DNA from: Verrucomicrobiia bacterium
Lineage (GTDB): Bacteria; Verrucomicrobiota; Verrucomicrobiia; Limisphaerales; UBA11358
NCBI GenBank assembly: GCA_025451535.1
Contig: JANWKE010000173.1
Coordinates: forward strand, 1-49,273
Direction: 5' to 3'
Length of the DNA: 49,273 bases
Shown here: positions 31,554 through 49,273 of the stretch, one piece after another
Position numbering within the stretch: the stretch's first letter is position 1
Layout of the letters: every line of letters starts with the position of its first letter
Made by a program: the position numbers and the translations under genes
Notes under the pieces: model-generated
What the model saw: the letters and a program-made list of their open reading frames with translations, nothing else
Databases searched by the model: none
What the model was told of the DNA's origin: nothing

Positions 31554-31630
<77 letters not shown>

Positions 31631-47513: not shown

Positions 47514-48034
47514 TTGAATTGTTTATTATAAAATCGGGCGGTATTGCTCAGTCCCAGCATAAATTGATCGGCTTCCGGGCGCGACATGTCCGGGGTAAAG
47601 GCGATCATTCCATTGCCAATGCGATGGCTGATGAGCGGCGCCGCCAGCCATCGGCCGTCAGCCGCTTTATCGCCCCATTGGCCAAAAATGACGAGGTGTC
47701 GGCCGGTGTTGGCGGCGGTGTATTGTTCCAAAATCCAGCTGCCGGTTTCGTCAAAACGAACTCCGAGGGCAAACCCGCCCGGCGCATCGATAATCTTTGC
47801 CGACACGAGGTTTGCTTCGGTCAGAACGGGCTGTTGCATGATGGTGACCAGGACCGGATCACCGCGCGGCACGGAGATGGTCTGGGTCATGCCCGCAGGG
47901 TCGGGGCTGGCTTCGATGTGGACCCGCAAGGCGGCAGTGGGACCGTGAGGTTTGTTGGTGAGGCAGCCGGAGAGCAGCACCACGGCTGTCGCCAGCGTCA
48001 AATAGATGTTGAATTGTCGCGACCGAGCTTCCAT
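47510..48034 (-). CDS. Lipoprotein resembling the SecD periplasmic head
   Basis: The 174-residue product has a signal peptide with lipobox LATAVVLLSGC. The mature part ends in GVRFDETGSWILEQYTAAN, GRHLVIFGQWGD, ISHRIGNGMIAFTPDMSRPEADQFMLGLSN. This order of elements matches the repeated head segment of SecD (ferredoxin-like fold with an 'FT.E.A..L' helix). No membrane helices of SecD are present. It is translated with the M23 peptidase, so an envelope role is likely. Similarity is by eye. Confidence 0.7.
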   Translation of the reverse strand: MEARSRQFNIYLTLATAVVLLSGCLTNKPHGPTAALRVHIEASPDPAGMTQTISVPRGDPVLVTIMQQPVLTEANLVSAKIIDAPGGFALGVRFDETGSWILEQYTAANTGRHLVIFGQWGDKAADGRWLAAPLISHRIGNGMIAFTPDMSRPEADQFMLGLSNTARFYNKQFK

Positions 48035-48081
48035 AGTGCCAACACAAAATCGGAATACGTGGCCGATGTAAAGACACTTGT

Positions 48082-48195
48082 ATGAGCAAACAATCCAACA
48101 AAGTTGAAAACCGGAAACGCCGGGCGCGTTATCTCAAACGGAAAAAGCAGACGGCCAAGGCCAAAAAGGCCCCACCCGCAAAAGCTGCGGCTTAG
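48082..48195 (+). CDS. Very small basic protein
   Basis: The 37-residue product MSKQSNKVENRKRRARYLKR with a following Lys/Ala/Pro-rich end has about 15 Lys or Arg. It has its own start in a divergent gap and its own terminator 35 bases after the stop, both of which support expression. Such tiny Lys/Arg/Ala proteins are seen next to other genes in this phylum; nucleic-acid or ribosome binding is inferred from charge. No family name is claimed. Confidence 0.65.
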   Translation: MSKQSNKVENRKRRARYLKRKKQTAKAKKAPPAKAAA

Positions 48196-48229
48196 CGTCC
48201 GGGTTAATCGCACTCCTTCGTCAGGCGGG

Positions 48230-48257
48230 GCCGCCTTTTGGCGGCTCTCTTTTTTTT
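48230..48257 (+). terminator. Intrinsic terminator after the small basic protein
   Basis: GCCGCC (48230-48235) pairs with GGCGGC (48240-48245) over a TTTT loop, followed by TCTC and a long T run. It ends the transcript of the 37-residue gene. Confidence 0.85.
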
Positions 48258-48344
48258 GGCCGGCAGAGAGCTCCGCCAGGGTTGGAATTTCGATGTTTCG
48301 ACAAAACAAACTTGTTCACCGCGACTGTTTTTGCCCGTAAAAGC

Positions 48345-48452
48345 TGTGGATAAATCGCGGAACCGGAACCGCGAAATACTTGATTTACCGGCTGATTCAG
48401 GTTTGTTCACCCTCTGTTCACCTGCACTTTTCAGTGAACAAATTGTGGATAT
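48345..48452. promoter_or_regulatory. DnaA-box-like sites and repeated GTTCACC motifs
   Basis: TGTGGATAA (48345-48353) is a perfect DnaA box on the opposite strand, and TGTGGATAT (48444-48452) differs by one base. GTTCACC occurs at 48314, 48405 and 48416, and GTGAAC at 48434. They lie upstream of the structured RNA. They may control the RNA, or may be unrelated. Confidence 0.35.
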
Positions 48453-48459
48453 CAATTCA

Positions 48460-48487
48460 TTGTCGGTTTGCAGAACTGAGTTATGAT
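48460..48487 (+). promoter_or_regulatory. Promoter candidate of the structured RNA
   Basis: TTGTCG (48460-48465) and TATGAT (48482-48487) are 16 bases apart, the spacing preferred in this window. Transcription would start near 48494, just before the first hairpin of the RNA locus. Confidence 0.45.
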
Positions 48488-48493
48488 GTTCGC

Positions 48494-49273
48494 AGTTCAT
48501 TGAAAGAACGAAGCAGGCAATGGTGGTTGAAAGATTGCCATGTTTGTTTCCAGGATAATCCCAGGCGACTGGGGAAAGGTCGGGTCAGGCTGGTTGACCC
48601 GGTCCCTCTGAAGTCGGGTCGAAAGGTCCGGCGGGGAGGCAGGATTCACCAGTTCCTCTGGCATGTTCGCAAATGCCAAAAGCGAATGAGGGACTTGGCG
48701 GCCAGGAACGATTGAGAAACCGTTCCGAGCCGGGTCAAGTAGTTCAGGCTGGTTTCGAGCCTGAGCGAATCGCAGTTACCCAGAGGGTAAACGGTTGTTA
48801 CTGTGCACCGGCACGGTGCCAGCGACTCTGGCGGATTGAATCGAAAGATGAAACCGCCCAATGAAACCCGCCGAAAGGCGGACAAAGGGAGCGCAGGTGC
48901 CGGGAAGGCCACGCAGACGAGGCAGGTCGCGTGAAAACCTTTCCAAGCTGGCGATGTTAAAAACGATGTCGCTGGGCTGTGAGCCAAAAGCAACCTGAGA
49001 GTGAAGAGGCGAGACCCGTGGTACCGGGCGAACGCGCCGCCAAAAGCGGTGGCTGACCCGGCACTAAGCGGTCAAGACGCGAAAAGCCGATCACAGGCGT
49101 GTCTTGACCTGGTTCACAGGCAGGTGGCGCAACCACCCGCCGAAGTGAGCTGAAAAGCCTCACTCGAAATCCGGCGACCGTAAGGCGCTGGACGGCCCTG
49201 CTACGAGGCCGAAAACTCCGCTTGCCGTGGAGAATGGCGTCGGGAAACCGGCAGCCCCCGCGAGGGTGCGCGC
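48494..49273 (+). ncRNA. Large structured RNA of unknown class, 3' end outside window
   Basis: No protein frame with family features covers these 780 bases. Perfect stems are closely packed: GGCAAT/ATTGCC (48516-48539), CGGGTCA/TGACCCG (48581-48601), GGAACG/CGTTCC (48705-48726), TCAGGCT/AGCCTGA (48744-48764), TTACCC/GGGTAA (48776-48790), GCACCG/CGGTGC (48805-48819), CCGCC-GAAA-GGCGG (48868-48881), TCAAGAC/GTCTTGA (49072-49107), GGTGG-CGCAA-CCACC (49123-49137) and AGTGAG/CTCACT (49144-49164). GNRA and A-rich loops on the + strand point to + strand transcription. The classic motifs of RNase P RNA and tmRNA are not seen. A group II intron 5' half, or another long bacterial RNA, is possible. Confidence 0.6.

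Follow-up and report, generated by a model that had tools for sequence, protein, structure and literature searches.

The window, a stretch of 49,273 nucleotides that constitutes contig C173 of a 4.4-Mb verrucomicrobial genome in 188 contigs, runs at its right edge into a MISL RNA (Rfam RF03079). A cmscan search of the whole window against Rfam 15 matched the family at 48553-49273 on the forward strand with 540.9 bits (E 1.7e-163), twice the gathering cut-off of 274.6 bits, and returned a tRNA at 31554-31627 as the only other match; a permissive rescan of 48000-49273 gave no further Rfam family over its cut-off. The copy is alike to the family in sequence, consensus helices, size and hosts, and model positions 1-713 of 751 are present, the 3' side being cut off. 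We regard the family identity as virtually certain, and it is very probable that the right edge holds a verrucomicrobial MISL RNA gene that the end of the contig cuts short. A sequence-only reading of this DNA had described 48494-49273 as a large structured non-coding RNA with at least ten perfect hairpins in 780 non-coding bases, and rightly so: the hairpins are consensus helices of the MISL family, and the stretch folds with a minimum free energy of -354.3 kcal/mol (z -9.17, with 0 of 20 shuffles as good). Its remark that the stretch matches no house-keeping RNA holds for the classical ones and fails for MISL, which Rfam has. With this match, the fold and the promoter described below, the observation stands and the word "unassigned" falls; a significant Rfam match, named beforehand as evidence against an undescribed element, was found, and a new RNA class is thereby rejected.

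The same reading had offered, as an alternative, the 5' half of a group II intron, with the reverse transcriptase located beyond the window. Group II introns resemble MISL in GNRA loops and in size, and the many hairpins with GNRA and A-rich loops, together with the large size, speak for such an element. However, the stretch is spanned by the MISL model, cmscan with all Rfam families matches neither an intron nor a domain V in the window and the initial 10 kb of the continuing contig C160, no reverse transcriptase or HNH match to Pfam occurs in the nine neighbours scanned (C160 to 7.8 kb), and the extension to the right, as had been advised, supplies the 3' end of MISL followed by a terminator and ordinary genes. 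In view of the significant match to RF03079 we reject the intron, which is exceedingly improbable, along with the new class.

The right limit of the RNA in the window is an assembly edge, the end of C173. The start of C160 is identical to the last 127 bases of the window (127/127), as would be expected if the assembly graph had been cut at a k-mer of this length, and C160 carries the missing MISL 3' end (locus L003). This 164-base piece alone scores under the Rfam gathering score, and the joined copy, at 91% over 756 bases against the complete copy L008, owes its full length (model 1-751) to the overlap and the L008 alignment, the Infernal scores being those of the separate pieces. Contigs ending inside MISL recur in the relatives G002, G005, G013, G020 and G023, perhaps because the assembly graph breaks where species present together share conserved sequence.

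As a large bacterial RNA family, MISL already has a name and a model; a 2017 survey is said to be the source of many such families, MISL reportedly among them. In the literature searched we found no mention of the accession RF03079 and, among the matches listed, no account of a function. "MISL RNA" appears as a chemical-mapping example in the Ribonanza preprint (PMC10925082). Beyond the catalogue we find the elements at the ends (promoter, boxA-like element, P0 and terminator), the strength of the core covariation and five extra helices. The limits of the transcription unit, together with the closing stem P0 and the covarying long-range pairs, indicate which RNA to make, probe and delete.

Ends of the probable transcription unit

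Around MISL, and beyond the Rfam entry, we find what appears from its sequence to be a complete transcription unit with a candidate promoter, a boxA-like element, a stem-loop (P0) and a putative intrinsic terminator. The boxA-like element, P0 and the terminator lie outside the covariance model. The features in the window are the following.

48227..48248, forward strand: terminator-like site after a 37-aa ORF, the one such site in 48050-49273, separating MISL from the preceding gene
48460..48465, forward strand: -35-like hexamer TTGTCG (promoter scan), with T-t-G columns conserved in 39 TCATTGA-form copies
48482..48487, forward strand: -10-like hexamer TATGAT (promoter scan), with tG.TA...T conserved in the same 39 TCATTGA-form copies
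48495..48509, forward strand: boxA-like element and hairpin GTTCATTGAAAGAAC, at the predicted 5' end of the transcript, outside the Rfam model
48510..48550, forward strand: P0 stem-loop, directly 5' of the Rfam start and outside the Rfam model, a closed hairpin in 118/118 copies
48553..49273, forward strand: MISL core, model 1-713 of 751 with 540.9 bits, going on in C160 (L003 128 to about 164)

The promoter TTGTCG-16-TATGAT at 48460-48487, already proposed from the letters, is the sole match of the promoter scan over 48050-49273, the shuffle mean being 0.2. The terminator-like site at 48227..48248 is weak when taken alone, as shuffles average 2.5 such sites. The start chosen earlier for the RNA, 48494, lies one base before the conserved 15-nt element, and since this element stands outside the Rfam model, the chosen span fits the probable transcript better than the Rfam match does; the right limit chosen is the end of the contig and not that of the RNA.

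Upstream of the Rfam start the element takes the form GTTC[ACT]TTGANAGAAC. Using patterns that, for this element as for P0 and the terminator, were picked after inspecting the sequences, TC[ACT]TTGA is found within 130 nt upstream in 119 of the 122 copies whose 5' end is intact and whose upstream sequence is long enough (the misses being L019, L131 and L070), as against 3.4% in shuffles and 3/116 stretches further upstream. The form with both arms (GTTC...NAAC) occurs in 99/122. In the window the element begins 8 bases after the -10 hexamer, its 15 nt can also form a 4-bp hairpin, and its pattern has one occurrence in the 4.4-Mb genome. Three distant copies (L053, L054 and L113) have lost the arms and kept TCTTTGA; the same three show a hairpin-like stretch with a GTTCC loop directly 5' of the GATCTTTGACAGA form of the element.

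As with the boxA of rRNA leaders, the core in MISL is UCUUUGA-like and sits close to the 5' terminus of a long RNA that is not translated. Comparing 17 genomes, TCTTTGA is found in the 16S rRNA leaders of 15 out of the 16 with a full 300-nt leader (G062 is without it, and the leader of G316 is cut at 91 nt), and the MISL TC[ACT]TTGA in 16/17 (the contig of G026 starts too late). The MISL element is identical to TCTTTGA in 7/16 genomes, whereas in 9/16 it has A or C at base 5, a U in the rRNA leaders; it is thus not a canonical boxA, and the GTTC/GAAC arms are not seen at the rRNA leader sites either. The boxA of rRNA is described as being bound by NusB with S10, as necessary and sufficient for the antitermination complex, and as unable to support that complex after one point change (PMC10250234). 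We consider the likeness suggestive, the difference at base 5 being the main counterpoint, and the chance that the MISL element acts as a boxA, i.e., recruits Nus factors, falls a little short of even. Such a role may link MISL to the machinery that shields rRNA transcription from Rho.

The 15-nt GTTC-N7-GAAC element could instead be a DNA operator (e.g., LexA-like) at the promoter rather than an RNA signal, as its arms in 99/122 copies, its start just after the -10 hexamer and the DnaA-box-like and TTRTTCAC/GTGAAYAA repeats immediately upstream would allow. However, the pattern has a single copy in the whole genome, unlike the operator of a regulon, a ground on which the LexA reading was discarded, and L053, L054 and L113 keep TCTTTGA in the absence of arms. 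An operator seems to us unlikely, though well within consideration.

P0 was scored as closed if, with each copy folded alone, the outermost pair lay no more than 6 nt from both ends and at least 6 pairs were formed. All 118 copies gave a closed hairpin as compared with 199/590 shuffles, so that a third of the shuffles also do, which counts against our reading, and the mean energy was -18.2 versus -11.7 kcal/mol in shuffles. The stem letters vary by group with pairing kept (GAAGC/GTTTC, AGTCG/CGACT and GGGA/TCCC), and in the 53-copy set with the TCCTTGAT form the P0 pairs switch from G-C to A-U, 662/688 cells being paired where the shuffle maximum is 640. RNAalifold on a MAFFT alignment of the TCATTGA set of 41 returned the boxA-like hairpin alone and not P0, for which reason the copies were folded one by one.

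At the other end, a G+C-rich stem followed by a T run is present downstream in 110/137 copies, as against 8.3% of shuffles and 2/129 stretches further down, and falls outside the rule used in 27/137. These 110 terminators comprise 88 distinct stems; that of the window's own copy is at L003 177-208 on C160.

The stretch upstream of the promoter (48300-48460) contains GTGAAYAA/TTRTTCAC and TGTGGATAA (48345) motifs resembling DnaA boxes, and TGTGNATAA is found on the same strand upstream in 11/37 and 6/53 copies, with none in shuffles or downstream controls. A replication origin at MISL was rejected: in the 8 genomes (11 searched) with both on one contig, MISL lies from about 63 kb to 2.2 Mb away from dnaA, and the G+C skew keeps its sign at MISL in G057, the one genome sampled for it, in 20 stretches of 6 kb each.

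Consensus fold and long-range helices

The homologues that the sequence-only reading had advised collecting amount to 138 distinct MISL sequences (identical RNAs merged), including the phage contig L177, which stands outside the counts for the element, terminator, P0 and core pairs; the 125 with intact ends were aligned. On the Rfam structure, 17489/20323 cells of the core pairs are paired in these 125 copies (86.1%). Shuffling the columns lowers this share to 71.3%, and shifting the 3' partners by 1-3 lowers it to 37-42%. Double changes occur in two or more sequences at 141/172 core pairs, the shuffle average being 93. The MISL consensus structure is supported by strong covariation. On this alignment some Rfam helices are poorly kept, namely those starting at columns 437/473, 568/604, 614/638 and 674/737 (0.54-0.66), along with two single pairs (0.42 and 0.62); pairing in 42-66% of copies there counts against our reading. 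A protein-coding region, to which stop-free runs (median 145 aa, any frame, within the RNA) might lend some credit, is contradicted by copy lengths that spread modulo 3 as 42, 55 and 41 of 138 (some ends extrapolated, L177 included) and by double changes that keep base pairs, and we give it practically no chance.

Long-range pairs were sought with an APC-corrected G statistic in 102 copies less than 93% identical (identical RNAs had been merged beforehand and, for the pseudoknots, copies at least 93% alike were dropped too), by retaining antiparallel runs of at least 4 columns with pairing in at least 85% of copies; parallel-strand runs served as a control that preserves relatedness. The scan recovers Rfam stems, and 44/60 of the best runs are non-Rfam stems. 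From these covariation patterns we find five probable helices outside the Rfam structure, mostly pseudoknots, which score 220, 148, 104, 97 and 91 (PK1 to PK5), the best control runs scoring 75 and 51. Their strands and those of a sixth, tentative helix, all from the covariation scan, are listed below.

48793..48798, forward strand: PK1 5' strand, pairs with 48990-48995; 98-101/102 paired, with as many as 22 double changes in a pair
48990..48995, forward strand: PK1 3' strand
48977..48982, forward strand: PK2 5' strand, pairs with 49091-49096; 89/97 and 94/102 at worst, 100/102 at best, up to 40 double changes
49091..49096, forward strand: PK2 3' strand, in a hairpin loop
49199..49203, forward strand: PK3 loop strand, pairs with 49235-49239; 101-102/102 paired, up to 38 double changes
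49235..49239, forward strand: PK3 3' strand
48667..48671, forward strand: PK4 loop strand, local, pairs with 48681-48685; 84-96% paired, up to 34 double changes
48681..48685, forward strand: PK4 3' strand
48590..48594, forward strand: PK5 5' strand, in the loop of the second hairpin, pairs with 48807-48811; 100/101 to 101/102, up to 11 double changes
48807..48811, forward strand: PK5 3' strand
49271..49273, forward strand: tentative PK6 5' strand, with its fourth base at C160 128 and its partner in the loop of the last hairpin, C160 155-158

The PK1 pairs occur as G-C, A-U, U-A and C-G. PK6 is paired in 102/102 copies with 7 double changes in all, and its score of 56 is below the best of the control; PK7 scores 45 and is not claimed. 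As a covariance model cannot hold pseudoknots, the absence of these helices from the cmscan output is no proof that they are unpublished.

Long-range pairing of this kind is typical of RNAs that act as machines, ribonucleoproteins (RNPs) or oligomers. We postulate that transcription of MISL would begin near 48490 and yield a free-standing, untranslated RNA roughly 860 nt long, that the boxA-like element at its 5' end would recruit Nus factors as boxA does on rRNA, and that Nus loading could let RNA polymerase cross the long untranslated folded stretch without Rho termination. P0 would close the leader, the body would fold into a compact pseudoknotted globule with its helices tied by the long-range pairs, and the intrinsic terminator would end the transcript. 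The globule would then act as an RNA, i.e., as the core of an RNP, a homo-oligomer or possibly a ribozyme, and not as an mRNA leader, an intron or a messenger. We give a globular RNP or oligomer about an even chance; in a milder novel reading, MISL may be a ribozyme-like pseudoknotted RNA machine transcribed with rRNA-style antitermination.

Among known large RNAs, MISL is comparable to ROOL, GOLLD and OLE in size class, ornate fold, long-range pairing and poorly understood role, and the raiA motif RNA is likewise a large bacterial RNA; cmscan gave no Rfam cross-match to any of these four in the window. GOLLD, ROOL and OLE are reported as homo-oligomers and the raiA motif RNA as a monomer by cryo-EM, ROOL and GOLLD being linked to prophages or phages (PMC12286853). 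In contrast to these phage-linked RNAs, MISL is situated in chromosomal neighbourhoods kept within groups, and a MISL oligomer is a conjecture.

Gene neighbourhood and distribution

To the left of MISL the window encodes rlmN, an M23 peptidase, a SecDF-like protein and a basic ORF of 37 aa that matches no Pfam family; downstream, C160 encodes a beta-lactamase-family protein, a PALP enzyme that we call cysK (cysK-like), rho and a WYL regulator. The 37-aa ORF, at 48082-48195, is very basic, and similar small ORFs are found 378-537 bases upstream of MISL in L079, L092, L094 and L153. Over 173 MISL loci, duplicates and many short flanks included, cysK is matched in 41 (always downstream and on the MISL strand), rho in 30 (in L150 upstream on the other strand) and M23 in 27 (in L125 far upstream on the other strand), and among 80 matches listed, cysK and rho are absent at the loci labelled Opitutaceae, Opitutae, Opitutia, Opitutales, Opitutus and Lacunisphaera. 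This pattern suggests a neighbourhood kept within groups and different between groups, as for a gene with its own signals.

MISL might be the cis-acting leader of a cysK-rho operon, given that cysK follows on the same strand in those 41/173 loci (duplicates included), in 37 at a distance of 117-265 bases from the RNA. However, a terminator closes the RNA in 110/137 copies, the beta-lactamase-family gene stands between in the window's genome, and loci with Opitutaceae-type labels among the 80 matches listed show no cysK or rho match. A leader is therefore very unlikely to our mind, and we consider it highly likely that MISL is a stand-alone RNA gene.

MISL was recovered from 27/40 relatives, the genome itself counted (26 over the cut-off), and from 0/14 control genomes. 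In a sample of 288 genomes from the phylum it occurs in at least 24 (own genome counted), 22 of the same class and 2 outside, a lower bound as two candidates per genome were scored. A pattern scan of a named genome collection gave at least 119 contigs with the MISL pattern, all 119 of which match the MISL profile built in this analysis; among 80 matches listed, 78 titles name Verrucomicrobiota groups and 2 say "bacterium".

The window's genome has one MISL copy. A second, diverged MISL exists in some Opitutaceae (L057 in G194; L132 with L068 in JAEUGX), both copies of G194 being over the cut-off, and the diverged sequences form a clade of six (L057, L071, L084, L089, L125 and L132) with a support of 0.98. 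In G036, the match at C218:1787-1927 (L030) is limited to model 605-750 and lies inside a 12.7-kb contig; it is either a partial copy or an assembly fault.

MISL in RNA phage contigs

MISL patterns match 14 distinct IMG/VR contigs, of which the profile, run over 206 viral loci, confirms four. L177 (5357 nt) carries MISL at 62-813 (model 1-751, 543.2 bits); L178, which starts inside MISL, at 1-480 (254.5 bits, below the gathering score, E 2.4e-75); and L205 at 47-322 (210.5 bits, below the gathering score, E 7.5e-61), essentially covering model 1 to about 258. The fourth, a 15.1-kb contig (L369:33-165), has profile positions 1-126, 95% identical to the window copy, before a phage-like gene that we take to encode a tail protein. 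L177 encodes RNA_replicase_B (E 3e-42) with a maturation match below the Pfam cut-off, and L178 encodes Phage_mat-A (E 7e-28) with a coat match below that cut-off, PHROGs agreeing on both; the ORFs of L205 are, by our reading, maturation, coat and replicase with YGDD, and its proteins match the L178 maturation protein (33%) and the L177 replicase (28%). In L177, L178 and L205 MISL is in sense orientation 5' of the maturation gene. In a MISL tree, L177 groups with the window copy in a clade of 29 members (support 0.90), in the same part of which L205 is placed (0.86). L178 belongs to a clade of 10 that includes copies titled Opitutaceae (0.94), which implies at least two origins of MISL in phage contigs.

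Repeated capture of MISL from verrucomicrobial hosts by single-stranded RNA phages (Leviviricetes), as a whole or partial 5'-terminal genome module, is a scenario that we hold to be quite improbable; chimeric cDNA behind the joins is likelier. Against a chimera, three different phages have MISL at the same place and in the same orientation, an RNase P control pattern in 34 viral contigs (RNA- and DNA-derived pooled) gave no match to four proteins of these phages in the stretches examined, and L177 has a stem at the place of P0 and no boxA-like element in the 61 bases before MISL, where 119/122 bacterial copies have one. For a chimera, none of the 158 relatives of the MISL-bearing phages among the matches listed has MISL, many being cut 5'; the join in L178 (480) lies at the point that corresponds to the contig start (4) of its relative L291; and the L369 fragment, nearly the same as the window copy, is joined to another phage-like gene. 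Moreover, the most conserved positions within their spans are all intact in the truncated L205 (35/35) and L178 (64/64), L177 missing 2/117, and as a piece evolving in a phage should not keep them like bacterial copies, the phage pieces look like ordinary host copies, which makes chimeric cDNA likelier. Such joins would be expected if reverse transcription ran past the 5' end of the phage RNA and onto an abundant transcript of MISL. A blastn search of MISL against a phage record collection gave no match, and the long 5' ends of 20 other levivirus contigs gave no host RNA at the gathering score.

If the capture were true, MISL would be an RNA fold usable by a phage genome and would name the hosts of these phages and, if the fusions are real, L177, L178 and L205 would to our knowledge be the first leviviruses with a host structural RNA. 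As leviviral contigs derive from RNA, MISL should have been in the RNA pool of the samples however the fusions arose, and it was probably transcribed in the IMG/VR samples with leviviral contigs, the alternative being DNA carry-over.
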